43,230 nt of DNA from Acidimicrobiales bacterium (GTDB lineage: Bacteria; Actinomycetota; Acidimicrobiia; Acidimicrobiales; CADCSY01): positions 1 through 43,230 of the forward strand of contig JAOBWJ010000379.1 in the NCBI GenBank assembly GCA_025463335.1, in the 5' to 3' direction. Shown here piece by piece: positions 1,910-23,792 of this stretch; within the stretch, counting starts at the first letter, position 1, and every line of letters starts with the position of its first letter. The notes below the pieces were generated by a model. The model saw only the letters and a list, made by a program, of their open reading frames with translations. It was not told the origin of the DNA and searched no databases. Made by a program: the position numbers and the translations under genes.

Positions 1910-2380
1910 ATGCAGGTCTCGATCGCACTGAACGGCGCGACCAGCGAGCACGAGGTCGAACCCCGGCTCCTCCTGGTCCACTACCTGCGCGACGTCGCCG
2001 GGCTCACCGGCACCAACGTCGGCTGCGACACGTCGTCGTGCGGGGCCTGCACGGTCCTCCTCGACGGCATGTCGGTGAAGTCGTGCACGGTGCTGGCTGT
2101 GCAGGCCGACGGTCGGGCGGTGACCACGATCGAGGGCTTGGCCACCAACGGGGAACTCCACCCGATGCAGGCCGCCTTCCGGGAGCACCACGGGCTCCAG
2201 TGCGGCTTCTGCACGCCGGGGATGGTGTTGGCCGCCGTGTCGCTCGCCGCCGAGGGCGGGGCCGGTGACGAGGCGGCGGTCCGCGAGGGCCTCGAGGGCA
2301 ACCTGTGCCGCTGCACCGGCTACCAGAACATCGTCGCCGCCGTCCTGGACGGGGCCAACGGGAACGGAGTTCGGTCATGA
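1910..2380 (+). CDS. coxS: 2Fe-2S iron-sulfur subunit of CO dehydrogenase/xanthine dehydrogenase family (CoxS-like)
   Basis: [16 protein letters not shown] and CGFCTPGM...[20 protein letters not shown] upstream of ATG 1910. Confidence 0.92.
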
Positions 2381-4743
2381 CCGCTGTCATGGGCACCGTC
2401 ATGGGCACGTCGCTGCGGCGGAAGGAGGACCCCCGGCTGCTGACGGGTGAGGCCCGATTCGTCGACGACCTGGTGCTGCCCGGCGCCCGGTGGCTGGCCA
2501 TGGTGCGCAGCCCCGAGGCGCACGCCCGCATCACCGCCATCGACGCCACCGCGGCGCTGGACACCCCTGGCGTCGAGGCCGTCCTCACCGGGAAGGAGCT
2601 GCGGGAGGCGTGGACCCAGCCCATGCCGTGCGCCTGGCCGGTCACGGACGACATGAAGAACCCCGTCCATTTCCCGGTCGCTGTCGACGAGGCGTGCTAC
2701 GTCGGCGACATCGTGGCCGTGGTCGTCGCCAGCAGCCGATACGCGGCTCGCGACGGCGCCGAGGCGGTGGACGTCACCTACGAGCGGCTCCCGGCCGTCG
2801 TGGACTTGGAGGACGCCCTGTCCGATCGGGTCCTGGTGCACGAGGGGCTGGGCACCAACAGGTCCTACACCTGGACGCTGGCCCCCGACCCGCCGGCCGT
2901 CGACCGGGCGTTCGCCGGGGCGGCCCACACGGTGCGGGCCCGCTACGTGCAGCAGCGCCTGATTCCCGAGGCCATGGAGCCGCGCGGGGTGGCCGTCGTC
3001 CCCCAGCCCGTGGGAGGCGAGATCGTCCTCTACTCCTCGACCCAGATTCCGCACATCCTCCGGGTCATGGTCGGGCTGACGCTCGGGATCCCGGAGCAGA
3101 AGGTCCGGATCATCGCCCCGGCTGTCGGCGGCGGCTTCGGTTCCAAGCTCAACGTCTACGCCGAGGAGCTCATCGCCGTCGCCCTGGCCCGCCGACTCGG
3201 TGGCCCCGTCCGGTGGACGGAGGAGCGGCGGGAGAACGCGGTGGCCACCATCCAAGGCCGGGGTCAGATCCAGGACATCGAGCTGGCGGCCGACGCCGAC
3301 GGCAAGGTCACCGCGGTGCGGGTGCAGATCCTCGCCGACATGGGTGCCTACCTGCAGCTGGTGACGCCCGGCATCCCGCTGCTCGGCGCGTTCCTCTATC
3401 ACGGCGTGTACGCCATCCCGGCCTACTCGTTCGAGTGCACGGGCGTGTTCACCACCAAGACGCCGACCGACGCCTACCGGGGCGCCGGCCGGCCCGAGGC
3501 CAGCTATGCCATCGAGCGGGCCATGGACGAGATGGCGCATGAGATCGGCCTGGCCCCCGACGAGATCCGGCGCCGCAACTACATCCAACCTGAGCAGTTC
3601 CCGTACGCCTCGCCGGCCGGGCTGACGTTCGACTCGGGCGACTACGAGCCGACCCTCGACCGGGCCCTCGAGCTGGTGGGCTACGAGGGGATCCGCAAGG
3701 AGCAGGCCGATCGCCGGGCGAGCGGCAGCACCCGGCACCTCGGTGTGGGCATGGCCACCTATGTGGAGATGTGCGGGCTGGCCCCGTCGCGGGTCCTGGC
3801 CTCCCTCAACTACGTGGCCGGGGGGTGGGAGTCGGCGACCGTCCGGCTGCTGCCGACGGGCAAGGCCCAGGTGGTCAGCGGCACGACCCCCCACGGCCAG
3901 GGCCATGAGACGTGCTGGTCGATGATCGTGGCCGACAAGTTCGGCATCGATCCCGACGACGTCGAGGTGCTGCACTCCGACACCGCCGTGTCCCCGCTCG
4001 GCCTCGACACCTATGGCTCCCGCTCCCTGGCCGTGGGCGGGGTGGCCGTGGAGCTGGCGGCCCAGAAGGTGCTGGACAAGGCCCGGCTCATCGCCGCCCA
4101 CCAGATGGAGGCCAACGAGGACGACCTCGAGTTCGTCGGCGGCGCCTTCCAGGTGAAGGGGAGCCCGGCCAGCGCCGTGCCCATCCAGGCCCTCGCCTTC
4201 GAGGCGTTCACCGCCCACAACCTGCCTGACGGGATGGAGCCCAACCTGGCCGAGCAGGTCACGTTCGATCCTCCGAACTTCGTGTTCCCGTTCGGCACCC
4301 ATGCCGCCGTGGTGGAGGTCGACGAGGAGACGGGCGAGATCCGCCTGCTCGACTACGCGGCCGTCGACGACTGCGGGAACCAGGTGAACCCGATGATCGT
4401 CGCCGGTCAGTTGCACGGCGGGATCGTGCAGGGCATCGCCCAGGCCCTCTGGGAGGAGGCCGTCTACGACGAGGACGGCCAGCTGCTGAACGCCACGCTG
4501 GTCGACTACCTCGTGCCCACGGCCGCCGAGCTGCCCAACTTCAAGCTGGACCACACGGTGACCCCATCGCCCACCAACTCCCTGGGCGTGAAGGGGGTGG
4601 GGGAGGCCGGCACCATCGGCTCGGCTCCGACGATCATCAACGCCGTGGTCGACGCCCTGTCCCACCTCGGGATCCGCGACGTGACCATGCCGGCCACACC
4701 TCAGCGGGTCTGGAAGCTCATCGAGGAGGCGAAGGCACGATGA
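2377..4743 (+). CDS. coxL: Molybdopterin-binding large subunit, CO dehydrogenase/xanthine dehydrogenase family (CoxL-like, form II type)
   Basis: Starts in the ATGA overlap with the upstream gene; [28 protein letters not shown] motifs; about 790 aa. Confidence 0.92.
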
Positions 4744-5561
4744 TCACTGCGCCGTTCGACTACGTGCGGGCCGACTCGGTCGACCATGCCGTGCAGCTCC
4801 TGGGCACCCACGGCGAGGACGCCAAGCTCCTGGCCGGCGGCCACTCGCTGCTCCCGCTCATGAAGCTGCGGTTGGCCACCCCTTCCGTGCTGATCGACGT
4901 GGGCCGGCTCGCCGAGCTGTCCTACGTCCGGGATGGCGGCGATCACGTGGCGATCGGGGCGCTGACCAGCCACCACGACGTGGCGACCTCGGACATGGTG
5001 GCCACCGATGTGCCGCTCCTGCGCCGCGTGGCCGGGCAGATCGGTGATCCTCAGGTCCGTCACCTCGGCACCATCGGCGGCTCGGTCGTCCACGGCGACC
5101 CGGCATCCGACATGCCGGCTGCGATGCTGGCGCTCCGGGCCACGTTCGTGACCGTGGGCCCGGGCGGTCAACGGGAGCATTCGGTCGATGGCTTCTTCAC
5201 GGGGTTCCTGGAGACGGCGATCGGCGCCGACGAGGTGCTCACCGAGATCCGCGTGCCCAAGGTTCCCATGGCGGGCTGGTCGTTCCAGAAGTTCCAGCGC
5301 CGGGCCCAGGACTGGGCGGTCGTCGGTGTGGCGTGCGTGCGCAACGACACCGTTGGCATCGGGCTGGTGAACATGGGCTCGACCTCGCTCCGGGCCACCG
5401 CCGTCGAGGACGCGCTGGGCTCGGGCGCGTCGATCGCCGATGCTGCCGCCCTCGCCGACGAAGGTACGGAACCCGTCGACGATCTCAACGCGTCGCCCGA
5501 GTATCGGCGCCACCTGGCCCACGTCCTCGTCCGCCGCGCCCTGGAGGAAGCCTCCCGCTGA
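4740..5561 (+). CDS. coxM: FAD-binding medium subunit, CO dehydrogenase family (CoxM-like)
   Basis: AKLLAGGHSLLPLMKLRLA and HLGTIGGSVVHGDPASDMPAA FAD-binding motifs; ATGA overlap with coxL-like gene. Confidence 0.92.
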   Translation: MITAPFDYVRADSVDHAVQLLGTHGEDAKLLAGGHSLLPLMKLRLATPSVLIDVGRLAELSYVRDGGDHVAIGALTSHHDVATSDMVATDVPLLRRVAGQIGDPQVRHLGTIGGSVVHGDPASDMPAAMLALRATFVTVGPGGQREHSVDGFFTGFLETAIGADEVLTEIRVPKVPMAGWSFQKFQRRAQDWAVVGVACVRNDTVGIGLVNMGSTSLRATAVEDALGSGASIADAAALADEGTEPVDDLNASPEYRRHLAHVLVRRALEEASR

Positions 5562-5566: not shown

Positions 5567-5944
5567 TCAGGTGGGTTCGAGTAGGTCCCAGCGGTTGCCG
5601 TAGAGGTCCTCGAACACGGCGACCGTGGCATAGGGCTCGTGGCGGGGTGGTTCGAGGAAGTGCACGCCGGCGGCGGTCATGCGGTCGTGGTCGGCGGCGA
5701 AGTCGTTGGTCTCCAGGAAGAAGCCGACCCGGCCACCGGTCTGGTCGCCGACCCGGGCCTCCTGCTCGGGTCCGCTGGCCCGGGCCAGCAGCAGGCCGGT
5801 GCCGCCGTCACTCGGGCCGACCACGACCCAGCGCTTGCCGCCGCCGAGGTCGGTGTCCTCTCGGAGGGTGAAGCCCACGGCGTCGACGTAGAAGCGGATG
5901 GCCTCGTCGTAGTCGCGCACGACGAGCGTGACGTGGGGGATCAC
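5567..5944 (-). CDS. VOC/glyoxalase superfamily protein
   Basis: VIPHVTLVVRDYDEAIRFYVDAVGF...DLYGNRWDLLEPT; GTG start overlaps upstream stop (GTGA). Confidence 0.85.
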   Translation of the reverse strand: MIPHVTLVVRDYDEAIRFYVDAVGFTLREDTDLGGGKRWVVVGPSDGGTGLLLARASGPEQEARVGDQTGGRVGFFLETNDFAADHDRMTAAGVHFLEPPRHEPYATVAVFEDLYGNRWDLLEPT

Positions 5945-6744
5945 GTGCCGGTGAAGTTGGGCGGCCGCTTCTCCACGAACGCCTGCATGCCTTCCTTGGC
6001 GTCGTTGCTGCGGGTGACCATCCCGGCGTAGCGGCCCTCGATGGGGCGGGCCTCGTCCTCGGGAAGCCAGCCGGTCTCGATGGCCGACGCCTTGGTGGCG
6101 GCCACCGACAGCGGGCCACAGCTGTTCACCAGATCGGCGATCTCGAGCGCCTTGGCCAGTCCCTCGCCCGTCGGCACCACGTGGGTGACGAGCCCCCAGC
6201 GCAGCGCCTCCTCGGCGTCGAGGATCCGCCCGGTGAGCAGCATCTCCAGGGCGACGGCGTAGGGGATCTGGCGCTTGAGTCGCATGGTTGAACCGGCCCC
6301 GGCGATCAGGCCGCGGCGGGCCTCGGGGACGCCGAAGCGAGCGTGCTCCTCGGCGACGCGGATGTCGGTCTGCTGCAGCATCTCGCACCCGCCACCCATG
6401 CAGTCGCCGTTGACGGCGGCGATGATCGGCTTGCGCAGCCAGTGCGACAGCAGCAGGCCCTTCCCGATCAGGCTCGGGTCGGCCTTGGCTCGCTCCTCGT
6501 GCTCGGACGCCGCCGTCCCGCCACCGGCCATCCACCCCGACTGGAGGTCGCCGCCCACGCAGTAGTGGCCCTCGGCGCCGGTGAGGATGGCGCAGCGGAT
6601 CGAGTCATCCGACTCGATGCGCTCCCACGCGTCGGCCAGGCGCACGATCATGTCGAGCGACAGGGCGTTGCGGCGCTCCGGCCGGTTCATGGTGAGGATG
6701 GCCGTCGGTCCCCGGAGGTCGACCAGCAGGCTCTCGTCGGACAT
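5941..6744 (-). CDS. Enoyl-CoA hydratase/isomerase family protein
   Basis: Crotonase pattern ILTMNRPERRNALSLDM, GGGCEMLQQTDIRVAEEHARFGVPEARRGLIAGAG. Confidence 0.92.
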   Translation of the reverse strand: MSDESLLVDLRGPTAILTMNRPERRNALSLDMIVRLADAWERIESDDSIRCAILTGAEGHYCVGGDLQSGWMAGGGTAASEHEERAKADPSLIGKGLLLSHWLRKPIIAAVNGDCMGGGCEMLQQTDIRVAEEHARFGVPEARRGLIAGAGSTMRLKRQIPYAVALEMLLTGRILDAEEALRWGLVTHVVPTGEGLAKALEIADLVNSCGPLSVAATKASAIETGWLPEDEARPIEGRYAGMVTRSNDAKEGMQAFVEKRPPNFTGT

Positions 6745-6766: not shown

Positions 6767-7411
6767 TCAATCGGGGGCGACAGTAGCGGTGGCCATCACC
6801 GCCAGCAGGCGGGCGGTGGCGGCCACCTCGGCCTCGCAGATCTCGTGACCCATGCCCTGGTAGACGGCGAGCTCGACCTCGGCCCCGCGACGCCGGAATG
6901 CCTCGGCCGTTTCCTGGACCCGGGGGAGGGGCACCCACTCGTCGGCGTCGCTGGTGCCGAGGAACACGGGTGTGCGCTCGAGAGACGGCCCGTCCCACGA
7001 GGTGCCGGGCGGGCCCACCAGCCCGCCGGTGAGGCCGACGATCGCGCCCCAGCGGGTCGGGTGGTCCGACGCGTACTGGAGCACCGAGCAGGCGCCCTGG
7101 GAGAAGCCGACGAGGGCCACCCTCTCCGGCGGCAGCGCGAGAGCGTCCACCAGCCGACTGATCCGCTCCATCGTCCAAGACAGCCATGGCTCGTTGGCCT
7201 CGCTCGGCTCCATGAACCGACCCGGGTACCAGCTCTGGCCGTCGGCCTCCGGCACCACGTACGCGAGCGGGAGCTCCGGGAGGCGGTCGAGCAGGTGCTC
7301 GAACATCCATTCGGGGCTCTGGTCGCGCCCGTGCACCACCACGGCGCCGGCGGCTGGGGACGCCGGGCCACGGCGGTGCACGGCACACCTCAGGTGGGCG
7401 TTGCCGGCCAC
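6767..7411 (-). CDS. Alpha/beta hydrolase of the phospholipase/carboxylesterase (MhqD-like) family
   Basis: VVVHGRDQSPEWMF, nucleophile elbow ALVGFSQGACS, Asp (TSDADEWVP) and His (GMGHEI); adjacent to ring-cleaving dioxygenase gene. Confidence 0.82.
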   Translation of the reverse strand: MAGNAHLRCAVHRRGPASPAAGAVVVHGRDQSPEWMFEHLLDRLPELPLAYVVPEADGQSWYPGRFMEPSEANEPWLSWTMERISRLVDALALPPERVALVGFSQGACSVLQYASDHPTRWGAIVGLTGGLVGPPGTSWDGPSLERTPVFLGTSDADEWVPLPRVQETAEAFRRRGAEVELAVYQGMGHEICEAEVAATARLLAVMATATVAPD

Positions 7412-7415: not shown

Positions 7416-8372
7416 TCAGTAGCGCAACGGCTCGAGGTACCCCATGATCCACTCCCGCTGGTCGGCGAACACCGGCGGCACCTGGAACTCCCGGCCGAGC
7501 AACCCGACTGTCTCGTCGATGGTGAAGCCGGCGGGCTTGGACACGGTGGCTTCGAACATGGCGCCGGCGGGCGTGCGGACGTAGACCGAGTCGAAGTACC
7601 CGCGGTCCTTGCGGTCGGAGGTGTCGGTGTAGCCGAGGCCCTCGAGGTAGGCCTTCACGTGGTCCTGCACGTCCAGGGACTCGACCTGGAACGCGGTGTG
7701 GTGCACGATCCCCTCGCCGAACGTCCACGTGCCGGGGGCCAGGCCGGGTTCGAGGACGAAGTCGACGATCCGGCCCGTGCCGCCCTCGGCGATCTCGAAG
7801 CGGATGTGGTCGCCGTCCTCCTGGGTCTGGCGGGCGTTCCAGCCGTCCTGCATGAACTCCTGGGACGCCTCGAAGTCTCGTACGGACACGGTGACGCCAT
7901 GAGTCCCCCGGATGGCGTTCTCGATGGGGACCGGTCCGGCGGTGTGCGGCGTGCGGCCGTCGTCGGCCACGCCCACCAGCTCGTACTCGATGCCGCACGG
8001 GTGCTCGAAGCGCAGGATGCGCTCGCCGAAGCGCGACGTCTCCTCGACCTTGACGCCGGCGTCGTGCAGGCGGGTGTGCCAGTACTCGAGCGACTCCTCC
8101 GGCACCGACAGGCTGATGGTCTTGGTCTGGTTGGTTCCCCGCCGCCCCATCCGGCCGGACTGCCGCATCGGGAAGCAGGTGACGAGCGTGCTCTCGTCGC
8201 CCACGTCGTTGCCGTAGTACAGGTGGTAGATGGGCACCACGCCGTCGTAGAGCGCCGTCTTCTTCACGCTCTTCATGCCGAGCAGCTTGGTGTGGAAGTC
8301 GTAGTCCTCCTGGGCGTCGCCGACGCACAGGGTCAGGTGGTGGTGGCGTTGGATGGCCTTGTTGGGTTCCAT
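7416..8372 (-). CDS. VOC-superfamily ring-cleaving dioxygenase, PcpA/LinE-type (hydroquinone 1,2-dioxygenase-like)
   Basis: HHHLTLCVGDAQEDYDF, YDGVVPIYHLYYG, GRRGTNQT, GTWTFGEGIVHHTAF, TSDRKDRGYFDSVYVRTPAGAMFEAT; candidate Fe ligands H12 (or H11), H225, E274; AAGGAGG RBS. Confidence 0.85.
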   Translation of the reverse strand: MEPNKAIQRHHHLTLCVGDAQEDYDFHTKLLGMKSVKKTALYDGVVPIYHLYYGNDVGDESTLVTCFPMRQSGRMGRRGTNQTKTISLSVPEESLEYWHTRLHDAGVKVEETSRFGERILRFEHPCGIEYELVGVADDGRTPHTAGPVPIENAIRGTHGVTVSVRDFEASQEFMQDGWNARQTQEDGDHIRFEIAEGGTGRIVDFVLEPGLAPGTWTFGEGIVHHTAFQVESLDVQDHVKAYLEGLGYTDTSDRKDRGYFDSVYVRTPAGAMFEATVSKPAGFTIDETVGLLGREFQVPPVFADQREWIMGYLEPLRY

Positions 8373-8393
8373 TGGTCCTCCTTGGTGTCTAGG

Positions 8394-9107
8394 TCAGTGC
8401 AGCGCCATGGCTGCCGGTCGCAGCGATCGCAGCGCCTCCAGCTCCACCGCCGTGGGGGGTGGTGTCTCGCCGAGGTCGTCGGCCACGAGGAGGGTCCAGC
8501 CGGTGGCGGCCCGGGCCATCTCGACGGTGGCGCCCGGGTGGAGGCACGTCAGGACCAGCTCCTCGCTGCCGGGCTCCCGGCGCAGCTCACCGAGGTCGGT
8601 GATGACGGTCGAGACGCGGTCGCCCACCGAGGTCCGGAAGGCGAGCGGGTCCACGAACGTTCGGGGCGACTGGCGCACGATCACGATGACCCGCCGACAG
8701 GACGTGGCGATCTCGGGAGCCCCGCCGGCGCCCGGCAGTCGGACGGTGGGTTTGGCGTAGGGGCCCACCACCGTGGTGTTGATGTCGCCTCGCCGGTCGA
8801 TCTGGGCGGCGCCGAGGAACCCCACGTCCATGCGCCCGGCCTGCAACCAGTAGTTGAAGATCTCCGGGACCGAGACAACGGCATCGGCGGTCTCGGCCAG
8901 CTCACCGTCGCCGATGGAGAGGGGGAGTGAGCGGGGCTTGGCGCCGATCGTGCCCGACTCGTACACGAGCACCAACCCGGGGGCATGGGTGCGCCGGGCC
9001 AGGTTGGCTGCCCGGGACGGCAGCCCGATGCCGACGAAGCAGACCTCGCCGTTCGCCAGGTGGCGGGCCGCCGCCACCGTCATCATCTCGTCGGTCGAGT
9101 AGGTCAC
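8394..9107 (-). CDS. CoA-transferase subunit B (CatJ/glutaconate CoA-transferase beta-type)
   Basis: VTYSTDEMMTVAAARHLANGEVCFVGIGLPSRAANLARRTHAPGLVLVYESGTIGAKP; E(S)G active-site pattern; GTG start overlaps previous stop. Confidence 0.87.
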   Translation of the reverse strand: MTYSTDEMMTVAAARHLANGEVCFVGIGLPSRAANLARRTHAPGLVLVYESGTIGAKPRSLPLSIGDGELAETADAVVSVPEIFNYWLQAGRMDVGFLGAAQIDRRGDINTTVVGPYAKPTVRLPGAGGAPEIATSCRRVIVIVRQSPRTFVDPLAFRTSVGDRVSTVITDLGELRREPGSEELVLTCLHPGATVEMARAATGWTLLVADDLGETPPPTAVELEALRSLRPAAMALH

Positions 9108-9568
9108 CGGTCGTCGAGCCACGGATAGCGGGCCCTGTCCTGGCCGGCGTAGTCCGGATCGAGGTAGATGAAGACGCGCTGGATGAGGAAGTCGCGGATC
9201 TCGAACACATCGCACCAGCGCCCGGCCGACCACTCGGGCTCGCCGGCCTGCCATGGGCCATCGCGGTGCTCGCCGTGACTGGTGCCCTCGCAGGCCAGCA
9301 CGTCGGTGCCGGTGAGGACCCAGTTGAAGAGGGAGTAGTCGTGCGTGATCCCCTTGATCGTGGCGCCGACGTCGCCGAACATCTGGCCGATCTGGGCCTT
9401 GCCGTTGGCCAGACCCCACTTGGGGAAGTACGCCTGGGCGTCCTCGGCGAAGAGGTCGAGGATCGAGCCGGCGGTTGAGGTGACCCCGCCGTTGTCGAAC
9501 GCCTTGAGGTACTCGAGAGCGACCGACTTCCGCTGCTCGTCGGTCATCGTGCTTCGGGTGATCGCCAT
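9104..9568 (-). CDS. SnoaL-like/NTF2-fold protein
   Basis: MAITRSTMTDEQRKSVALEYLKAFDNGG...LDLFAEDAQAYFPKWGLANGKAQIGQMF; GRWCDVFEIRDFLIQRVFIYLDPDY. Confidence 0.78.
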   Translation of the reverse strand: MAITRSTMTDEQRKSVALEYLKAFDNGGVTSTAGSILDLFAEDAQAYFPKWGLANGKAQIGQMFGDVGATIKGITHDYSLFNWVLTGTDVLACEGTSHGEHRDGPWQAGEPEWSAGRWCDVFEIRDFLIQRVFIYLDPDYAGQDRARYPWLDDR

Positions 9569-9579
9569 GGCTGCTCCTC

Positions 9580-10401
9580 TCAGGTTGTGCTCGGCACCAG
9601 GTCGAGCACGTGGGTCCGCATCCAGCCCAGGAACGTGTCGCGGTCGCGACTGATGACGTCCCACGCCTCGTAGAAGGCGTTGTCCCGGGTCGAGTAGTCC
9701 TGGGCGTAGCTCGGCTGGGCGCCGCCCGGCACCTCGGCCACGGCGCTCAGCACCCAGCCCGGGAGGACGATGGCACCCGGACGGGGCTGCAGCTCCTCGA
9801 CGACCTCCTCGACGGTCACCACGGCCCGGCGAGCGGCGAGCACGGCCTCCTTCTGCACACCACAGATGCCCCAGAGCTGGACGTTGCCCGCCCGGTCGGC
9901 CTGCTGGGCGTGGATGACGGTCACGTCGGGGCGAAGGGCGGCCACGGCGGTGAGCCGCTCGCCGGTGAACGGGCAGGCCAGCGGGGCCACGTTGGCGGTG
10001 TGGTCGACGAGGTCGGTGCCGACGTACCCGCGGAGCACGGCGAACGGCAGGCCGGAGGCGCCGGCGACGTAGCGGTTGGCCATGCCGGCGTGGCTGTGCT
10101 CCTCGAGCTGGAGGGGCCGGGGCCAACCGTGCTCGACGGCGTCGCGGAACCGGTGGAGCGAGCCGACACCAGGGTTTCCGCCCCACGAGAACACCAACCG
10201 GGCGGCAACCCCCATGCCGATGAGCTGGTCGTAGAGCACGTCCGGCGTCATCCGCACGAGCGTGAGGTCCTGCCGGCCCTGGCGAACGATCTCGTGACCG
10301 GCAGCGAAGGGGATCAGGTGGGTGAAGCCCTCGAGGGCCACCATGTCCCCGTCGCCCACGTTGGCGGTGATCGCCTCGGCCAGGCTCGTGAGCACGGCCA
10401 T
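9580..10401 (-). CDS. CoA-transferase subunit A (CatI/glutaconate CoA-transferase alpha-type)
   Basis: DGDMVALEGFTHLIPFAAGHEIVRQG...GNPGVGSLHRFRDAVE; GGAGGGG RBS. Confidence 0.87.
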   Translation of the reverse strand: MAVLTSLAEAITANVGDGDMVALEGFTHLIPFAAGHEIVRQGRQDLTLVRMTPDVLYDQLIGMGVAARLVFSWGGNPGVGSLHRFRDAVEHGWPRPLQLEEHSHAGMANRYVAGASGLPFAVLRGYVGTDLVDHTANVAPLACPFTGERLTAVAALRPDVTVIHAQQADRAGNVQLWGICGVQKEAVLAARRAVVTVEEVVEELQPRPGAIVLPGWVLSAVAEVPGGAQPSYAQDYSTRDNAFYEAWDVISRDRDTFLGWMRTHVLDLVPSTT

Positions 10402-10402
10402 G

Positions 10403-11890
10403 TCAACCCCTCCGGTAGAAGGGTGGGAGGTCGGCGTCGACGTTGACCCACACCGATTTCGCCTCCGTGGCCTCGTGGACGGCCTCGAAGCCCATCTCCC
10501 GGCCGTAGCCGGACTGGCCGGTGCCGCCGAACGGCGAGCCTGGATTCACCCGCTTGTACGAGTTGATCCACACCATTCCGGCCCGGAACGCGCGAGCCAT
10601 GCGGTGGGCCCGGGAGAGGTCGCGGGTCCAGAGGCCGGCCCCCAGGCCGTACTCGGTGGCGTTGGCCAGGGCGACGGCCTCGGCGTCGGTGCGGAAGGTC
10701 GTCACCGTCACGAACGGGCCGAAGACCTCCTCCTGAGCCACCCGGCTGGCCGGGTCGGCACGGACCACGGTCGGCTCGACGTAGCAGCCCTGTGCGAGGC
10801 GGGGGTCGTCGGGAGAGCCGCCACCGGTGAGGATCTCGGCCCCCTCGTCGAGCGCCACCTTCACGTAGGACAGCACGCGGTCGCGGTGCATGGGTGACGT
10901 GAGCGGCCCCATCTCGGTGCTCAGGTCCAAGGGGTGACCGAGGCGGATGGACCGAGCCAGCTCGAGGAAGCCGTCGAGGAACTCCTCGGCGACGTCCTCG
11001 TGCAACAGCAGCCGGCTGCCAGCGATGCACGCCTGCCCCTGGTTGTGGAAGATGGCGAACGCCGAACCGTTGCGGGCCGCATCCAGGTCGGCATCGGCGA
11101 ACACCACGTTGGCGCCCTTGCCGCCCAGTTCGAGCTGAACCCGCTTCAGGTTGGTGGCCGACGCTTCGACGATGCGGCGCCCCGTCGCCGTCGACCCGGT
11201 GAATGCGATCTTGGCCACGTCGGGATGCTCGGCGAGGCGCTGGCCGGCGGTCGGTCCGTAGCCGGGCACCACGTTGACGACTCCGGGTGGGAAGCCGACC
11301 TCGGCGATCAGCTCGGCCAGCCGCAGCGACGACAGCGGGGTCAGCTCGGCCGGCTTGAGCACGGTGGTGTTGCCGGTGGCCAACGCCGGCCCCAGCTTCC
11401 AGCTGCAGAACATGAGAGGAAAGTTCCACGGCACGATGGCTCCGACCACGCCGAGGGGCTCGCGCTCGACGTAGTTGAGGAACCCGCGCTCCACGGGGAT
11501 GACGGCGCCCTCCACCTTGTCGGCCATGCCGCCGAAGTACCGGAACGTGGCGGCGGTCCTCGGGACATCGAGGGCGGCGGTGTCCCGCAAGGGGTGGCCG
11601 GTATCGCGGGTCTCGAGGTGGGCCAGCTCGTCGGCATGGGCCTCCACGGCGTCGGCGAGGCGCAGGAGGAGCCGACCTCGCTCGGCGGCGGGCATGGCCG
11701 CCCACGCCGGGAACGCGGCGTGGGCGGCGGCCACGGCCCGGTCGACGTCCTCGGCCCTCGCCTCGGCCACCTCGGCGAGGACCGAGCAGTCGTGGGGGTC
11801 GAGCACCTCGATGGTGCCGCCGGCGAGGGCGTCGACGAAGTCCCCGCCGATGGAGAGCTTCGTCGCCACCGCCCCGCCGGTCCCGGTCAC
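10403..11890 (-). CDS. Aldehyde dehydrogenase; candidate 4-hydroxymuconic semialdehyde dehydrogenase by context
   Basis: VVGAIVPWNFPLMF, FTGSTATGRRI, VQLELGGKGANVVFADADLD, NQGQACIAGSRLLLHE (catalytic Cys), KSVWV; GTG start overlaps upstream stop. Confidence 0.93.
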   Translation of the reverse strand: MTGTGGAVATKLSIGGDFVDALAGGTIEVLDPHDCSVLAEVAEARAEDVDRAVAAAHAAFPAWAAMPAAERGRLLLRLADAVEAHADELAHLETRDTGHPLRDTAALDVPRTAATFRYFGGMADKVEGAVIPVERGFLNYVEREPLGVVGAIVPWNFPLMFCSWKLGPALATGNTTVLKPAELTPLSSLRLAELIAEVGFPPGVVNVVPGYGPTAGQRLAEHPDVAKIAFTGSTATGRRIVEASATNLKRVQLELGGKGANVVFADADLDAARNGSAFAIFHNQGQACIAGSRLLLHEDVAEEFLDGFLELARSIRLGHPLDLSTEMGPLTSPMHRDRVLSYVKVALDEGAEILTGGGSPDDPRLAQGCYVEPTVVRADPASRVAQEEVFGPFVTVTTFRTDAEAVALANATEYGLGAGLWTRDLSRAHRMARAFRAGMVWINSYKRVNPGSPFGGTGQSGYGREMGFEAVHEATEAKSVWVNVDADLPPFYRRG

Positions 11891-12561
11891 GCCGGGACGG
11901 TCGGGGCTGTCGGGGCGGTCGGGGTCGGAGTGGCGGGCGCCGGGGGCTCGTGCACGGTCGCCGGGCGGTGCAACTCGGCGAACGTCCGCTCCTCTTCGGA
12001 GAGCGGGTTGTAGATGAGGCCGACGTGCAGGCCGTAGATGGCGTGCCACAGGTAGACGGCGGCGATGTACTTCCAGCCCAGGTTGTTGCTGAAGAACCCG
12101 TTGTGGAACTCGGGCACCAGCTCGGGCGTCACCCACAGGCAGCTGAGGGTGCCGAGGAAGAGCCCCCACACCATGGCCTTGGCCAGGTTGCCTAGCACCG
12201 TGTTGCGCCACGGCAGCAGCGGGTGGACGGCGATCATGAAGACCACGGTCAACACCACGCCGGTGAAGGCGTGAGCCACCCAGCCGAGCACCAGCCGGGT
12301 GGTGTCGGAGACGGCGAGGATGTCTGTCGGGTTCGGTCCCAGCACCGTGCGCATGAGCAGGTAGCCGTTGAACCGGGGCCAGTCGACGTCGGGCAGACCG
12401 ATGCCGTGGAACCAGAAGCCGGTGATGGTCGCGATGTGCGTGGCCACGATCCCGGCCAGGACCGCGGTGCCGAGTCGATGCGTCGAGACGGTTTCCCGCC
12501 ACTCGAAGATCTCCTCGTGGTTGTCGCGTCTCATTTCGTCGTGGTGCCGGGTGATCCGCAT
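11887..12561 (-). CDS. Uncharacterised multi-spanning (about 4 TM) membrane protein
   Basis: Hydrophobic stretches LGTAVLAGIVATHIATITGFWF, VLGWVAHAFTGVVLTVVFMIAV, AMVWGLFLGTLSCLWV, YIAAVYLWHAIYGLHVGLIY; GGGAGG RBS. Confidence 0.8.
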   Translation of the reverse strand: MRITRHHDEMRRDNHEEIFEWRETVSTHRLGTAVLAGIVATHIATITGFWFHGIGLPDVDWPRFNGYLLMRTVLGPNPTDILAVSDTTRLVLGWVAHAFTGVVLTVVFMIAVHPLLPWRNTVLGNLAKAMVWGLFLGTLSCLWVTPELVPEFHNGFFSNNLGWKYIAAVYLWHAIYGLHVGLIYNPLSEEERTFAELHRPATVHEPPAPATPTPTAPTAPTVPA

Positions 12562-12630
12562 GCTGCGCCTCCCTCGTTGGATGGCTGGACGCCTCCGGTT
12601 CGCTGTCTGGGTGTGCGTGGGGGGGGGCAG

Positions 12631-13611
12631 TCAGAAGTCGACCGGGTACGTCGGTGCCCGGCCTTCGGCGATCATGCGGGGGAGGGCGGCCGAGCCGTTC
12701 TCCCAGACGAGCAACATCGAGCGCTTGGGGGAGAAGCCCTGGTGGCGGATGTCGGCGGGCATGGCCGCCACGTCTCCCGCCTTCATCGTCACCCTTGCCC
12801 GGAGGGCATTGGTCTCCTTGTCGGCGACGACCCACTCGATCTGGTCGGAGAGCTGGACGAACCACTCGACCCGGTCGTTGCCGTGGATGATGGGGAGGAT
12901 GAACTCCTCGGTCGTCGGGCAGTAGAGGCTGTCCTCGCAGACCGACACGACCGATGGGTTCCAGGTCACGTCCGAGCGCGAGAGGTAGGCAAAGAGGTTG
13001 AAGCCGCAGACCTCCTCCTCGAAGCCGGGCTCGGGCTCGACGTCGGGCTCGTCCTGGGGCACGTCCGCGAACATCCGGTTCACCGGGTGGCCGGTGGCGT
13101 CGCTGCGGGGCACCTCGTCGCCGGGGACGCCCACCATGCGCTTGGCCGTCACCCGTCGGCGGGTCACGGCCTTGGTGTTGGAGCCCTGCTTGTCACCCCA
13201 CGGCGAACCCGTCTCCTCGGGCGCGGCGAAGGGGTCGAACCCCTCGATCGTCCAGTCGTCGAGAATGGCCTGGAACGCGGCGTGGATGTCCTCGTGGGGG
13301 AAGCGCTCGACGTAGTCGAGGCCGGCCCCGCGGTACGACTCGTTGAAGGAGCCGGCGAAGAGGTCGACTTCGCCGTAGTGGTTCACGGTGCCGATGACGG
13401 CATCGAAGTTGACCACGCCATAGAAGAACCCCCACGCCACGTCGCGCTGAAGGGCGCGGAGGAAGGCGTCGATCGACAACACGTCCTTGCCCGAAGGCCA
13501 GGCCACATGAGCGAAGTACTCGTCCCGGTCGAAGGTGAACTCGCCGAGCCGGAACGAGCGGTAGCCATGCTCGTTGCGGTCACCGACGACGGCGGGTGCG
13601 GTGTCGGTCAT
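12631..13611 (-). CDS. Hydroquinone 1,2-dioxygenase large (cupin) subunit, PnpD/HapD/HqdB-like
   Basis: 326 aa; FRLGEFTFDRDEYFAHVAWP; N245-x3-E249 ... H290 (HGNDRVEWF...DIRHQGFSPKRSMLLVWENGS) matches recalled PnpD Fe-ligand spacing; paired with a small cupin gene and an ALDH. Confidence 0.82.
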   Translation of the reverse strand: MTDTAPAVVGDRNEHGYRSFRLGEFTFDRDEYFAHVAWPSGKDVLSIDAFLRALQRDVAWGFFYGVVNFDAVIGTVNHYGEVDLFAGSFNESYRGAGLDYVERFPHEDIHAAFQAILDDWTIEGFDPFAAPEETGSPWGDKQGSNTKAVTRRRVTAKRMVGVPGDEVPRSDATGHPVNRMFADVPQDEPDVEPEPGFEEEVCGFNLFAYLSRSDVTWNPSVVSVCEDSLYCPTTEEFILPIIHGNDRVEWFVQLSDQIEWVVADKETNALRARVTMKAGDVAAMPADIRHQGFSPKRSMLLVWENGSAALPRMIAEGRAPTYPVDF

Positions 13612-13627
13612 CGGAGCTCCTCTTCCC

Positions 13628-14125
13628 TCAGTCGGTCTGGCAGATCTCGGACCAGCGGTAGACGGTGTCGGCGCCGGCGATCGTCTGGAGCAGGATCACG
13701 GATGGCTCGTCGGCGCGGAACCGGTGGGCGGCGTTGGCGGGGAGGAGCGCCATGTGGCCCCGGCGGGCCACGACGCGGCCCATCGGCCGGCCGTCGGGTT
13801 GCTCGGCCAAGGCGATGGACCCCCGGGTACCCGCCGGGACGACCGGTTCGGTCAGGGACCGCAGCTCGACCACGACCGTGCCGTCCATCACCAGGGCGAA
13901 CTCGTCGTGGGCAGCCGAGCGCCACCCGGAGACGCCCTCGGCCCGGATGACCTCGAGCACGTACTCCTGGTTCTTGGCGACGGCGATCTTCTCCCAGGCG
14001 ACGGCGCCCGAGGCCACCTCGAACATGTTGGAGAACGTGTAGTGGCGCGGGTCGTCGTCGATGATCTCGACGCCGCCCTTCTCGTAGTCGACCAGGCTGC
14101 CGAAGCGGGTCGCGTACGTCGTCAC
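13628..14125 (-). CDS. Hydroquinone 1,2-dioxygenase small (cupin) subunit, PnpC/HapC/HqdA-like
   Basis: VTTYATRFGSLVDYEKGGVEIIDDDPRHYTFSNMFEVASG; 165 aa from GTG with GGGAGG RBS (upstream ATG at 14161 lacks RBS); immediately precedes large subunit. Confidence 0.75.
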   Translation of the reverse strand: MTTYATRFGSLVDYEKGGVEIIDDDPRHYTFSNMFEVASGAVAWEKIAVAKNQEYVLEVIRAEGVSGWRSAAHDEFALVMDGTVVVELRSLTEPVVPAGTRGSIALAEQPDGRPMGRVVARRGHMALLPANAAHRFRADEPSVILLQTIAGADTVYRWSEICQTD

Positions 14126-14171: not shown

Positions 14172-14205
14172 GTTCGCTATGCGAACTAATGTGCGCTACA
14201 CGAAC
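14172..14205. promoter_or_regulatory. Tandem IclR-type operator candidates GTTCGCTATGCGAAC (14172-14186) and GTGCGCTACACGAAC (14191-14205)
   Basis: First copy is a perfect 6-bp-arm palindrome; second matches it at 12/15 positions, 19-bp phase; lies in the divergent intergenic region between the dioxygenase operon and iclR-like gene. Confidence 0.65.
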
Positions 14206-14254: not shown

Positions 14255-15028
14255 GTGCCGAACGAGGAGCGCGACGGCGAGTTCGTCCAGTCGCTGGAAC
14301 GGGGCCTGGCCGTGATCCAGGCGTTCTCGGCTGAGCACCCCCAGCAGACGCTGGCCGACGTCGCCCGTCGCACCGGTCTGACCCGGGCCACCGCCCGGAG
14401 GTTGCTCCACACCCTGGTGGCATTGGGCTATGCCCGGACCAACGGGAAGTCCTTCGAGCTGGCGCCCAAGGTCCTCGACATCGGCTACGCCTACCTGTCG
14501 TCGCTCGATGTCGAACGTCTGGCCGAACCGTCCATGGAGGCGCTGGTCGAACAGACGCACGAGTCGTGCTCGGCGGCGGTGCTGGACGGCGCCGAGATCG
14601 TGTACGTGGCCCGGGTGCCGACCAAGCGGATCATGACGATCGCCCTCGGGCTGGGATCGCGCCTGCCGGCCTACCTCACCTCCATGGGTCGGGTGCTGCT
14701 GGCCGAGCTCGACGATGACGAGGTCGACCGTGTGCTCGGCCCGGGTCCCTACGAGGCCCGGACCTCCCGGACGGTCATCAAGCCCGATGACCTCCACGAG
14801 GAACTGGCTCGGGTGCGGCGCCAGGGCTGGGCCCTGGTCGACCAGGAGCTCGAGGACGGCCTCCGTTCCATTGCGGCGCCGCTCCGCGACCGGAACGGGA
14901 GGGCGATCGCGGCGGTGAACATCTCGAGCCACGCTGGTCGGGTCAGCCTCGAGACGGTGCGGCGGGAGTTCCTGCCGGCGCTGCTGTCCACGTGCGCCGA
15001 GATCAACGAGCGCCTGGCCCGGCGCTGA
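14255..15028 (+). CDS. IclR-family transcriptional regulator (PcaR/PobR-like class)
   Basis: FVQSLERGLAVIQAFSAEHPQQTLADVARRTGLTRATARRLLHTLVALGYA; IclR effector domain; GTG start with GGAGGG RBS. Confidence 0.93.
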   Translation: MPNEERDGEFVQSLERGLAVIQAFSAEHPQQTLADVARRTGLTRATARRLLHTLVALGYARTNGKSFELAPKVLDIGYAYLSSLDVERLAEPSMEALVEQTHESCSAAVLDGAEIVYVARVPTKRIMTIALGLGSRLPAYLTSMGRVLLAELDDDEVDRVLGPGPYEARTSRTVIKPDDLHEELARVRRQGWALVDQELEDGLRSIAAPLRDRNGRAIAAVNISSHAGRVSLETVRREFLPALLSTCAEINERLARR

Positions 15029-17836: not shown

Positions 17837-19009
17837 TCAGGGTTGCAGCACCACCTTCACGCACTCGTTCTCCTTGTGCTTGAAGGTGTCGTAGCCCGCC
17901 GGCGTCTCTTCCAACGGCAGGCGGTGGGTGACGATGAAGCTCGGGTCGATGCGGCCCTGCTCGATGTGGTCGAGCAGCGGACGCATGTACCGGTGCACGT
18001 GGCACTGGCCCGACTTGATGGTGAGCGACCGGTTGACCACGGCGCCCATCGGAAACTTGTCGAGGAACCCGCCGTAGACACCTATCACCGACACGGTGCC
18101 GCCGTTGCGGCAGCTGGTGATGGCCTGGCGCAGGGCGTGGGGCCGATCGGTCTCGGCGCGGAGCGCCTGCTTGACGCGGTCGTAGGCGGCGATGGGTCCG
18201 GTCCCGTGGTCGGCCTCCATGCCCACAGCGTCGATGCACGCGTCCGGCCCGCGTCCGCCGGTCAGCTCGAGGAGCTCCTCTCGCACGTCCGTCTGGTCGA
18301 GGTTGATGGGGGTTGCGCCCACCTGCCGTTCCGCCATGGCCAGCCGGAAGTCCACGTGGTCGATGGCGATCACCTCCTCCGCCCCGAGCAGGCGGGCGCT
18401 GGCCATGGCCAACTGGCCGACCGGACCGGCGCCCCACACCGCCACGACATCGCCGGGCTGGATGTCGCACATCTCGGCCCCCATGTAGCCGGTGGGCAGG
18501 ATGTCCGACAAGAACAGCACCTGCTCGTCGGGCAGGTCGTTCTCGATCTTGAGCGGTCCGATGTCGGCGAACGGCACCCGGACGTACTCCGCCTGGCCAC
18601 CGGCGAACCCGCCCAGCATGTGGGAGTAGCCGAAGATCCCGCAGGGCGAGTTGCCCCACATCCGCTCGGCCAGCTCGGCGTTCGGGTTCGAGTTCTCGCA
18701 GAGCGAGTACTCCTCGCGCTCGCACGCCAGGCAGTGGCCGCAGGCGATGGGGAAGGGCACGACGACCCGGTCGCCGATTTGGAGGTTGTCGACGCCCGAG
18801 CCGACCTCGACGACCTCGCCCATGAACTCGTGCCCGAGCACGTCGCCCTCCTTCATGGTGGGGACGTAGCCGTCGTAGAGGTGGAGGTCGGAGCCGCAGA
18901 TGGCCGAGGAGGTGATGCGGATGATGGCGTCACGGCGGTTGAGGATCTTGGGGTCGGGCACCTCTTGGACCTCGACCTCGTTGACGCCCATCCAGCAGTT
19001 CGCCCTCAT
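17837..19009 (-). CDS. Zinc-dependent medium-chain alcohol dehydrogenase
   Basis: [24 protein letters not shown], structural Zn site [24 protein letters not shown] Rossmann motif. Confidence 0.92.
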
Positions 19010-19548
19010 CGCAGCGCTCCCAACTCGTCCAGTTCGGCGTCGGACAGGGGCCGGGCCGGGCGCTGATGGAGAAGCCGCCAGCTGTCCGGACCCTCGGGGC
19101 TCCCGTCGGAGCGGAGCACCTCGCCGGCCTCGAGCACCTGCTTGAACCGGCGCAGGTCCTCCTTCAGCTGCATCCCCGGTTCGTCACCGCGGAGCTTCTT
19201 CACCAGCGAGGCGACCTTGGGCTCGCTGGACTGGTAATCGACCTCGACCACGACCTCGGTGCCGCGGTCACCGGGAGCCGGGGCGAACCGGACGGTGCCT
19301 TCGCTGGCGACGTCGGAACCAGCGACCGACCGCCAGGCGATCACGGCCGCCTCGTCCGTGACGATCTCGATGTCCCACTCGGCGACCTCTTCGTCCCGGG
19401 CCTTCGACCGCCAGTGCCATCGACCGCCGCCGCGGTCTTCCACCGACCCCACGTTGGTCATGAAGTCGGCGAGGTGGGCGAAGTCGTGCCAGTACTGGTA
19501 CACCTCGGCCGGTGGCCGGTTGACCGTGACCGCTGTCTTGCCGTGCAT
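19006..19548 (-). CDS. SRPBCC-family (polyketide cyclase/START-like) protein
   Basis: [46 protein letters not shown]; 4-bp overlap with ADH gene. Confidence 0.82.
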
Positions 19549-19645
19549 GCGCGCCTCCCCAGATCACCCGATCACCGGGCCGCTATCCCGATCGGCGCGG
19601 CTCCAAACTGCGTGGTCTCGTAGTGCCCAACCCGACTCGGCCGCG

Positions 19646-20065
19646 TCAGGCGGGGGTGTGCACGTCCTGGGCGACGACGTGGGTGACCGGAAGCCCGAAC
19701 GCCCCGAGCCGGCGGACCACGTTGTGGCTCAGCCATCGGCTGAGCCCTTTCGGCAGCGTCGACACCACGATCTCGTCGAAGGCCTGGCGCCGCAGGACGT
19801 CGGCGACGGCCGTGACCGGGCTCGGGTCGCCGATCTCGCCTGCGGCCGGAATCCCCTCCTCGCCCAGGGCGCCGATGATCGCCGTCAACCGCTCCTGGGC
19901 CTCGCGCTCCGCCTGGGCGTCGGTCCAGAACCCCGACGGGTGCGACGCCGGCACGACCAGATGGAGCTGCACCGGCCCGTCCCGGGAGCGCGCTCGCAGC
20001 ACCTGGAGTAGCGCCGAGTCGCAGAGCGTTCGGTTGGCGACGACGAGCACCCGTCTCATGCCCAT
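19646..20065 (-). CDS. Universal stress protein-like alpha/beta protein
   Basis: RRVLVVANRTLCDSALLQVL...FDEIVVSTLPKGLSRWLSHNVVRRLGAFGLPVTHV. Confidence 0.65.
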   Translation of the reverse strand: MGMRRVLVVANRTLCDSALLQVLRARSRDGPVQLHLVVPASHPSGFWTDAQAEREAQERLTAIIGALGEEGIPAAGEIGDPSPVTAVADVLRRQAFDEIVVSTLPKGLSRWLSHNVVRRLGAFGLPVTHVVAQDVHTPA

Positions 20066-20131
20066 GAGTCCTCGTGCTCATCCAACGCCCGATCCCGGCG
20101 CGGGTCAACCCGGACCTGCGACGCTGCGGGC

Positions 20132-21058
20132 GTGCTCGACGCGCTGGCTGACCAGGCCTTCGACGAGGCGGGGCCGCTGGCTCCCACCTACGCCCTGCTG
20201 GTGGTCCAGGGTGGCGAGGTGGTGCTGGAGCGATACGGCACCCTGCCCAATGGGCAGCCGGTCGACGCCGACACGCCGCTGCGGTCGTGGTCGATCGCCA
20301 AGTCGATGCTGCACTCGGCCGTCGGGCTGCTGGTCGGCGACGACCGTCTGCGGGTGGAGGACCCGGCGCCGGTGCCGGCATGGCAGGGCGACCACCGGGC
20401 GGCCATCACGATCGACGACCTCCTGGCCATGCGCGACGGCCTCGACTTCACCGAGGACTACCTCGACGAGCGGGCGTCGGACGTCATCGAGATGCTGTTC
20501 GGCTCGGGCGGCGACGACGTGGCCGCCTATGCCACCAGCCGGCCGGCGGTGGCCGCACCGGGCCTGCGGTTCAACTACTCGAGCGGGACGTCGAACATCC
20601 TGTCGTCCCTCGTCGCCGGCGTGGTCGGTCCGGGGGAGGCCTATCAGCGGTTCCTGCACGAGCGGCTGTTCCGGCCGCTGGGCATGACGTCGGCCCGGCC
20701 CGGCTTCGATGCTGCCGGCACGTGGGTGGCGTCGACGTACGTGAACGCCACCGCCCGGGACTTCGCCAGGTTCGGCGCCCTCTACCTGCACGGCGGCCGG
20801 GACCTGCTGCCCGACGGCTGGGTCGAGCACGGCATCCGCGTGCGCTCGATCGACGAGGAGAGCGGCCACGGCTACGGCGCCCACTGGTGGTTGCCGCCCG
20901 GCGACCAGGGCGTGTTCGAGGCCCGAGGGTATGAAGGGCAGTCGATCACGGTGGCGCCAGACCTCGACGCCGTCGTGGTGCGGTTGGGGCGCACGCCGGC
21001 CACCCGCAACGGTCCGCTGCGGGCCTGGCGGGCGGCCATGGTCGACGCCCTAGGTTGA
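20132..21058 (+). CDS. Serine hydrolase, beta-lactamase (class C)/esterase fold
   Basis: SWSIAKSML (SxxK), YSSGTSN, HGYGAHWW; GTG start. Confidence 0.88.
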   Translation: MLDALADQAFDEAGPLAPTYALLVVQGGEVVLERYGTLPNGQPVDADTPLRSWSIAKSMLHSAVGLLVGDDRLRVEDPAPVPAWQGDHRAAITIDDLLAMRDGLDFTEDYLDERASDVIEMLFGSGGDDVAAYATSRPAVAAPGLRFNYSSGTSNILSSLVAGVVGPGEAYQRFLHERLFRPLGMTSARPGFDAAGTWVASTYVNATARDFARFGALYLHGGRDLLPDGWVEHGIRVRSIDEESGHGYGAHWWLPPGDQGVFEARGYEGQSITVAPDLDAVVVRLGRTPATRNGPLRAWRAAMVDALG

Positions 21059-21068
21059 CAAACTGTCA
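21055..21068. promoter_or_regulatory. Inverted repeat TGACA-AAC-TGTCA upstream of monooxygenase operon (operator candidate overlapping TTGACA)
   Basis: Perfect 5-bp arms at 21056-21060/21064-21068, also overlapping the previous stop codon. Confidence 0.4.
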
Positions 21069-21136
21069 GCTTCTTTTCACGGACGAGCAGCGCGGCGTCC
21101 TCTGACTTGAAACACGGTCCAACCCATCATCTCCGG

Positions 21137-22438
21137 ATGACGACGTCGCCGTTCCACCTCGGGTGGTTCATGAACTTCACGGCCCTGCAGTGGAACGACC
21201 AGTTCGGCAGCACCGAGAACCCGTGGACCGGCCAGTTCTACGTCGAGATGGCGCAGGCGCTGGAACGAGCCTGCTTCGACTACATGCTCATCGAGGACAC
21301 GTTGATGGTGCCGGACGCCTATGGCGAGTCGTTCGACGCCTACCTGAAGCACGCCATGATGACCCCCAAGCACGACCCGGTGCCCCTGGCCACGCTCATG
21401 GCGGGCGCCACCTCGCGGCTGGGGCTGGTGGCGACGATGTCGACGAGCTTCTACCCGCCGTTCATGCTGGCCCGGCTGGCCTCCACCGTCGATCACATCT
21501 CGAGCGGTCGGTTCGGCTGGAACATCGTCACGTCGGGCGAGGACTCGGCGGCGCAGAACTTCGGGATGGACAAGCTCACCGAGCACGACCTCCGCTACGA
21601 CATCGCCGAGGAGTACCTCGACCTGGTCTGCCAGCTGTGGGACTCGTGGGACGCGGATGCCGTGGTCATGGACCGCGAGACCGGCGTGTGGGCCCAGGGC
21701 GACAAGGTGCGGACCATCGACTTCCAAGGTCGCTGGTTCAAGTCTCGGGGCCCGCTCAACACGGTCCGTCCGCCCGCCGACCGGCCGGTGTTCGTGCAGG
21801 CGGGTGGCTCGCCCAAGGGTCGGCAGTTCGCCGCCAAGTGGGCCGACTCCATCGTGGCCATCGCCAACGGCGTCGAGGGCATGAAGGCGTACCGCGACGA
21901 CGTGCGGGCCCGGGCCGAGGCCATGGGCCGCAAGCCCGACGACATCAAGGTGCTGTTCCTGGTGTCGCCGGTGCTGGCCGAGACCACGGCAGAGGCCCAC
22001 GCCAAGAAGGAGCGACTCCAGACCAGCGACCGCTACGCCGAGCAGACCCTCCTGCTCATGTCGTCGATCACGGACATCGACTTTTCCCAGTTCGACCTCG
22101 ACGAGGTCCTGCCGCCGCTCACGACCAACGGCGAGCGGGCCTCGCTGGAGAAGTTCATGCAGGTCGGGAGCGGCAAGACGCTCCGGCAACTGGCCAAGGA
22201 GGGCACGGCCAACTCCGTCCACTTGGTCGGGACACCCGACGACGTGGCCGACCAGATGGGCGAGATCATGGAGGAGGTGGGTGGTGACGGCTTCCTCCTG
22301 ACCTCCAACGCCGTCTCGCTGGACCGGCGCTACATCGCCGAGATCACCGACGGCCTGGTGCCGGCCCTGCAGCGGCGTGGTTTGGCCCGCACGTCGTACA
22401 CGCACGAGCACTTCCGCGACAACCTCCTCGAGTTCTGA
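21137..22438 (+). CDS. LLM-class flavin-dependent monooxygenase, NtaA/SnaA/DszA-type
   Basis: FHLGWFMNFTALQWN, VDHISSGRFGWNIVTSGEDSAAQNFG, RYDIAEEYLDLVCQLWDSWD, GRWFKSRGPLNTVRPPADRPVFVQAGGSPKGRQFAAKWAD. Confidence 0.93.
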   Translation: MTTSPFHLGWFMNFTALQWNDQFGSTENPWTGQFYVEMAQALERACFDYMLIEDTLMVPDAYGESFDAYLKHAMMTPKHDPVPLATLMAGATSRLGLVATMSTSFYPPFMLARLASTVDHISSGRFGWNIVTSGEDSAAQNFGMDKLTEHDLRYDIAEEYLDLVCQLWDSWDADAVVMDRETGVWAQGDKVRTIDFQGRWFKSRGPLNTVRPPADRPVFVQAGGSPKGRQFAAKWADSIVAIANGVEGMKAYRDDVRARAEAMGRKPDDIKVLFLVSPVLAETTAEAHAKKERLQTSDRYAEQTLLLMSSITDIDFSQFDLDEVLPPLTTNGERASLEKFMQVGSGKTLRQLAKEGTANSVHLVGTPDDVADQMGEIMEEVGGDGFLLTSNAVSLDRRYIAEITDGLVPALQRRGLARTSYTHEHFRDNLLEF

Positions 22439-22924: not shown

Positions 22925-22936
22925 CAGGATCGGGCC

Positions 22937-23773: not shown

Positions 23774-23778
23774 CGAGC

Positions 23779-23792
23779 TCCGGTTCGCCGGA
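23779..23792. terminator. Bidirectional hairpin TCCGG-TTCG-CCGGA between convergent genes
   Basis: Perfect 5-bp stem located in the 23-bp gap between convergent stop codons. Confidence 0.5.

Follow-up and report, generated by a model that had tools for sequence, protein, structure and literature searches.

Introduction

The two non-homologous classes of hydroquinone 1,2-dioxygenase, type I enzymes with a VOC fold and two-subunit type II enzymes, are normally described from separate pathways. In the closest described type II systems, PnpCD of Pseudomonas WBC-3, HapCD of P. fluorescens ACB and the Sphingomonas TTNP3 enzyme, the small-subunit and large-subunit genes are adjacent. Type I enzymes such as PcpA, LinE and MnpC belong to chlorophenol, lindane or nitrophenol clusters and are known mostly from pollutant degraders. 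Here we analyze a 43,230-nucleotide stretch of an Acidimicrobiales bacterium (contig JAOBWJ010000379.1 of assembly GCA_025463335.1; the whole stretch is called the window below), in which a single predicted operon carries genes for a type II enzyme and for a type I enzyme. The window has 71% GC and comes from the 3.98-Mb, 91%-complete assembly of a soil-type actinobacterium.

Results

The predicted dioxygenase genes are the following.

13628..14125, minus strand: PnpC/HapC, small cupin subunit of a predicted type II hydroquinone 1,2-dioxygenase
12631..13611, minus strand: PnpD/HapD, iron-binding large subunit of the same predicted enzyme
7416..8372, minus strand: predicted type I hydroquinone dioxygenase with a VOC fold, PcpA/LinE/MnpC clade

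The small-subunit gene lies 16 bp upstream of the large-subunit gene, and its product has 5m21_A as its best match in the PDB (E = 4.4e-59), with 4zxa_A also matched (1.1e-44). The large subunit matches PF18191 (PnpCD_PnpD_N, 6.7e-57) with 191.8 bits against a cut-off of 25 and is 68% identical to its best PDB match, the hydroquinone dioxygenase large subunit 5m21_B (1.9e-151), and 61% identical to 4zxa. Residues N245, E249 and H290 are invariant and align, at computed positions, with N258, E262 and H303 of 4zxa, which we take to be the iron ligands of that structure. When NCBIfam was scanned, neither dioxygenase matched any model over its cut-off. We conclude that the gene pair at 12631-14125 is predicted to encode a type II hydroquinone 1,2-dioxygenase. 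It shares with the PnpCD, HapCD and TTNP3 group 61-68% identity in the large subunit, the three identical ligands and a semialdehyde dehydrogenase gene in the same unit, whereas it differs from those systems in that the operon has no maleylacetate reductase gene (none was found in the genome either) and has two inserted genes, one for a membrane protein that we call TM224 and one for a SnoaL-like protein.

The 318-residue, two-domain VOC protein has PcpA (4huz) as its best PDB match over residues 7-310 (1.4e-84; 287 bits, versus 144 for MhqO, 3oaj) and is 44-47% identical to PcpA, LinE and MnpC over its full length. Its H12, H225 and E274 align with the PcpA ligands H11, H227 and E276, and H11, H224, R257 and Y264 are further conserved active-site residues, although none of these positions discriminates between clades because all are kept in MhqO too. 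The separation came from a tree of 51 sequences, which placed the window protein inside a 20-row PcpA/LinE/MnpC clade (100/100), with MhqO outside it across a split of 100/100. Within the clade, whose inner order is less certain (86-91% bootstrap), the protein falls into an Acidimicrobiia-type group (98/92) with L143, L144, L145, L146 and L154 (genome G797). An AlphaFold2 model built on a 5-row alignment was poor (predicted local distance difference test, pLDDT, 52.7) and was not used; homology to 4huz suffices to accept the fold. From its matches and its place in the tree, the 7416-8372 product is predicted to be a type I hydroquinone dioxygenase of the PcpA/LinE/MnpC clade. With PcpA, LinE and MnpC it has in common the clade, the three ligands and the four extra active-site residues; unlike them it lies outside any chlorophenol, lindane or nitrophenol cluster, belongs to an Acidimicrobiia clade of its own and shares an operon with a type II enzyme.

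The original prediction, made from the DNA letters alone, had read these three open reading frames (ORFs) as a PnpC/PnpD-like cupin pair and a PcpA/LinE-like VOC protein, and had proposed that one operon appears to encode both non-homologous classes. The ORFs, the motifs and the ligand spacings it gave were all correct, both family assignments agree with the matches above, and no ligand was lost in the alignments. Sequence, ligands, phylogeny and pathway neighbors likewise point to both classes in one operon, which is larger than had been proposed and extends to 5567.

This operon is a run of 11 co-directional minus-strand ORFs from 14125 to 5567, with gaps of -4 to +69 bp, in the order PnpC, PnpD, TM224, aldehyde dehydrogenase, coenzyme A (CoA)-transferase subunit A, SnoaL-like protein, CoA-transferase subunit B, the 318-residue VOC protein, alpha/beta hydrolase, enoyl-CoA hydratase and a small VOC protein. 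Terminator-like sites within the run are at chance level, with 2 observed and 1.7 expected from shuffles. Because of the shared direction, the gaps, the chance-level terminator-like sites and a palindrome ahead of the first gene, we judge the run by its anatomy to be one operon. Two elements lie upstream of it.

14255..15028, plus strand: divergent IclR-family regulator, PcaR/PcaU/PobR subfamily (TIGR02431, 332.7 bits against a cut-off of 284.75)
14172..14186, no strand assigned: palindrome with half-sites GTTCGC and GCGAAC around TAT (GTTCGCTATGCGAAC), in the gap between the IclR and PnpC genes

A divergent IclR gene adjoins PnpC in many related loci. The GTTCGCnnnGCGAAC form of the palindrome is also present in the IclR-PnpC gap of L047, L050, L059 and L085, and a perfect copy is missing in many other such loci; by chance, any perfect 6+6 palindrome occurs in such a gap in 3-6% of shuffles. 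The palindrome is likely an operator of the IclR regulator.

Directly downstream of the type I gene is a hydrolase gene.

6767..7411, minus strand: alpha/beta hydrolase of the phospholipase/carboxylesterase family (PF02230, 6e-16; 4h0c_A, 7.5e-27)

The hydrolase carries a GFSQG nucleophile motif, with D155 or D157 and H189 as the other likely members of a catalytic triad. A PF02230-type hydrolase is the same-strand neighbor of the type I gene in the window, at L143, L145, L146, L147 and L149, and at the plasmid loci L133, L134, L135 and L137 (Pseudarthrobacter, two Rhodococcus and Shinella), and near LinE one lies one gene further on. Of the contexts examined across phyla, about half have such a hydrolase directly next to the type I gene. 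These neighborhoods suggest that the 6767-7411 product is likely a partner of the type I dioxygenase, and that PF02230 hydrolases are possibly general partners of type I enzymes. The mnp cluster shows an analogous logic: its type I enzyme, MnpC, has been proposed to form an amide, and a gene for an amidase is close by (PMC5604080). The MhqO/MhqD quinone-response pair of Bacillus and Paenibacillus resembles the window in that a VOC dioxygenase adjoins an alpha/beta hydrolase, and differs in VOC clade, regulator and operon setting.

Clusters with both types were present in six further genomes (L007, L012, L018, L020, L055 and G797), which are labeled Acidimicrobiia or, for some metagenome-assembled genomes (MAGs), Proteobacteria; because several are MAGs, organism labels such as Alphaproteobacteria for L020 may be wrong. 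In two of the six the types are co-directional. L007 has PnpC, PnpD, aldehyde dehydrogenase, TM224 and VOC on one strand, and L020 has PnpC, PnpD, aldehyde dehydrogenase, both CoA-transferase subunits, maleylacetate reductase and VOC on one strand, where the contig ends inside the VOC gene and the rest is apparently at the end of contig L151. The arrangement in L012 and L018 is PnpC to TM224 followed by a convergent hydrolase-VOC block, while the Proteobacteria MAG L055 has VOC and hydrolase on the opposite strand and G797 keeps the order of the window with the two types convergent and about 9 kb apart. In the genome of L004, CoA-transferase and reductase genes at the end of a contig (L143) adjoin a VOC-hydrolase block. 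The Acidimicrobiia clusters (L012, L018, L007 and G797) thus resemble the window in combining PnpCD with a type I gene, with TM224 also present in L007, L012 and L018 and the hydrolase in L012 and L018. They differ in retaining a maleylacetate reductase (or a relative among the iron-containing alcohol dehydrogenases, Fe-ADH) and a hydroxyquinol 1,2-dioxygenase, both of which the window operon lacks, and L012, L018 and G797 carry the type I gene on the opposite strand, unlike the window.

In a class sample of 395 genomes, PnpD was present in 7 and the VOC protein (E ≤ 1e-60) in 2, both among the 7 (Fisher P = 2.7e-4; P = 0.015 without the window's own genome). A type I homolog of at least 42% identity was found in 8 of 50 PnpD-bearing genomes versus one other genome in a phylum sample of 397 (P = 1e-7); as kinship is ignored and the 50 genomes were chosen by PnpD closeness, these P values speak for an association and not for its strength. 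A type I gene beside PnpCD is a recurrent option and no rule. The literature searched, which comprised open-licence papers, contained no description of an operon with both classes. Both enzyme families were already known; what appears to be new is that they are combined in one operon, that this recurs and that type I genes are coupled to a hydrolase.

The remaining genes of the operon are as follows.

11887..12561, minus strand: TM224, conserved helical membrane protein
10403..11890, minus strand: aldehyde dehydrogenase, PnpE/HapE-like 4-hydroxymuconic-semialdehyde dehydrogenase (4go3/4go4, 2e-237)
9580..10401, minus strand: CoA-transferase subunit A, glutaconate-CoA-transferase type (1poi_A, 2.8e-27; PF01144)
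9104..9568, minus strand: SnoaL-like (NTF2-fold) protein between the CoA-transferase subunit genes (PF12680, 2.7e-06)
8394..9107, minus strand: CoA-transferase subunit B (1poi_B, 9e-26)
5941..6744, minus strand: enoyl-CoA hydratase/isomerase (PF00378, 1.6e-53; best NCBIfam model EchA19, below cut-off)
5567..5944, minus strand: small single-domain VOC protein (PF00903, 4.2e-21)

The γ-hydroxymuconic semialdehyde dehydrogenase structures 4go3 and 4go4 rank second among the matches of the aldehyde dehydrogenase (about 792 bits), behind the unnamed aldehyde dehydrogenase 4o6r, and the next group follows at about 472 bits, some 320 bits lower. CatI/CatJ of Pseudomonas B13, which are similar in size to the CoA-transferase pair, are 3-oxoadipate CoA-transferases. 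A reading of the pair as an IpdAB-like ring-opening hydrolase was set aside: it matches glutaconate CoA-transferase and related structures most closely, and in related clusters it sits between the aldehyde dehydrogenase and maleylacetate reductase genes. A relative of the SnoaL-like protein (76% identity) follows the aldehyde dehydrogenase gene next to PnpCD in L046. TM224 has relatives at 30-45% identity in L007 (5233-5808), L012 (17316-17855), L018 (17325-17861), L013 (7952-8512), L047 (17039-17617), L050 (15844-16410) and L039, at positions that vary between PnpCD clusters. It matched no Pfam family over the cut-off, and a Foldseek search with its AlphaFold2 model (pLDDT 83.6) gave no PDB match with E ≤ 0.001; it is possibly a hydroquinone or quinone transporter.

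Across a comparison set of 80 related PnpD loci, the usual cluster is an IclR gene beside PnpC, PnpD and aldehyde dehydrogenase, often with the same CoA-transferase pair. Genes of a putative maleylacetate reductase type are present in 53 of these loci and genes of a putative hydroxyquinol dioxygenase type in 36; an Fe-ADH Pfam match contributes to this naming. No gene of the second type is in the window operon, and set beside the hydroquinone to 3-oxoadipate clusters pnpCDEF and hapCDEF, the operon has a counterpart of PnpE/HapE and none of PnpF/HapF.

Two further gene groups lie on either side of the operon. Molybdenum hydroxylase genes of the CoxS/CoxL/CoxM type (2Fe-2S, molybdopterin and flavin adenine dinucleotide subunits) lie on the plus strand at 1910-5561, convergent toward the operon end. 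Upstream, 19006-32317 holds genes for two luciferase-like monooxygenases (one of the NtaA/DmoA type), an FMN reductase, an acetoacetate-decarboxylase-like protein and a Liv-type ABC transporter, and these may supply aromatic or other substrates to the operon.

Discussion

We considered why one operon would hold both classes. The original prediction had offered sequential ring cleavage or a partitioning of substrates; nothing we found supports the first, and the second is favored because the regiochemistry of cleavage differs between the classes and because a hydrolase accompanies the type I gene, in the window as in other phyla. Chlorohydroquinone is split at the C1-C2 bond by LinE-like enzymes and at the C1-C6 bond by HapCD-like ones (PMC5604080). 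In methylhydroquinone, the bond adjacent to a ring hydrogen is the one preferred by a type II enzyme, which barely accepts hexyl or larger groups (PMC3222310). The rule is not absolute, since an older type II study saw fluorohydroquinone cleaved between C1 and C2 (PMC3222310).

The operon would then serve hydroquinone degradation under a PcaR/PcaU-type regulator through two convergent ring-opening branches. PnpCD would break the hydroquinone ring at a bond that joins a hydroxyl carbon to an unsubstituted one, giving 4-hydroxymuconic semialdehyde, which the neighboring dehydrogenase would oxidize to maleylacetate. On ring-substituted hydroquinones, the PcpA/LinE-type enzyme would cut between C1 and the C2 that bears the substituent, leaving this group on the new carbonyl, so that a methoxy group would yield an ester, an alkyl group a ketone and a halogen an acyl halide. 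The dehydrogenase could not use such a product because it is no aldehyde; the adjacent hydrolase would instead remove the substituent in an esterase or C-C hydrolase reaction to give maleylacetate or a close analog. Both branches would join the 3-oxoadipate route via the CoA-transferase. We consider a division of plain and substituted hydroquinones between the type II and type I branches slightly more probable than all other readings taken together; how the substrates are divided, what the hydrolase does and which compound is the natural substrate are inferred. As a guess, the natural substrate would be a methoxy- or small alkyl-hydroquinone of plant or lignin origin. More tentatively, and with rather less than even probability, the system may be a bifurcated pathway in which each of the two non-homologous dioxygenases has its own processing enzyme and one regulon handles plain and lignin-type substituted hydroquinones (e.g. 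methoxyhydroquinone, opened to a methyl ester), merging at maleylacetate on a route that may bypass the usual maleylacetate reductase in this organism.

Several observations weigh against a two-branch division. Methyl-, methoxy- and chlorohydroquinone are substrates of type II enzymes too (PMC3222310, PMC4879640), and the type I enzyme MnpC also takes plain hydroquinone and chlorohydroquinone (PMC5604080). Most PnpD-bearing genomes (42 of the 50) have no type I gene at 42% identity or more, and those 50, chosen for closeness to the window PnpD, are non-independent. The PF02230 neighbor is missing in L007 and G797, two of the clusters with both types. Finally, the operon, which otherwise looks complete, has no maleylacetate reductase, and searches with PF00465 (Fe-ADH, at its cut-off) and with a maleylacetate reductase from a related cluster as query found none in the rest of the 91%-complete genome, an absence that is unproven because about 9% of the genome is missing; the sole Fe-ADH-like match (L003, ORF 129-1271) belongs to no Pfam or NCBIfam family.

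Because the published substrate ranges overlap in this way, the main rival is redundancy, in which both dioxygenases would act on the same hydroquinone or hydroquinones as overlapping isoenzymes, for example at differing concentrations or oxygen levels. We regard it as unlikely, given that the two classes cut chlorohydroquinone at different bonds and that the type I gene is accompanied by a hydrolase for which a plain-hydroquinone branch has no need. Less probable still is quinone detoxification, with the VOC protein and hydrolase acting as an MhqE/MhqD or MhqO/MhqD pair that removes toxic (methyl)hydroquinones or quinones and feeds no carbon into metabolism. Hydroquinones are toxic, the ligands are common to both VOC clades, and an alpha/beta hydrolase gene next to mhqO is an arrangement already described (PMC12673573), but phylogeny disfavors such a role by placing the VOC protein across a 100/100 split from MhqO, and the setting is a catabolic operon with a β-ketoadipate-type regulator, where MhqR, nitroreductase and DoxX genes are not its companions. 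Least probable, by a little, is a separate module in which the VOC protein, hydrolase, enoyl-CoA hydratase and small VOC protein would degrade another aromatic (e.g. a para-diol with a larger alkyl or aryl substituent) and share only regulation with the operon to which they were fused: L012, L018 and G797 have the type I gene in a convergent block outside the pnpCD transcript, nearly all other loci show neither the enoyl-CoA hydratase nor the small VOC gene beside PnpCD, and type II enzymes reject long alkyl groups (PMC3222310), yet L007 and L020, whose clusters have no enoyl-CoA hydratase, carry the type I gene in the same direction as pnpCD.

Under the favored two-branch division, the presence of both types in one regulated unit, its recurrence in Acidimicrobiia and the tie between hydrolase and type I gene across phyla would give a simple chemical reason for keeping both enzymes. 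The natural, non-pollutant substrates of type I and type II enzymes become a directly testable question, and the findings suggest for type I enzymes a more ancient role, in the natural degradation of aromatics in soil and peat.

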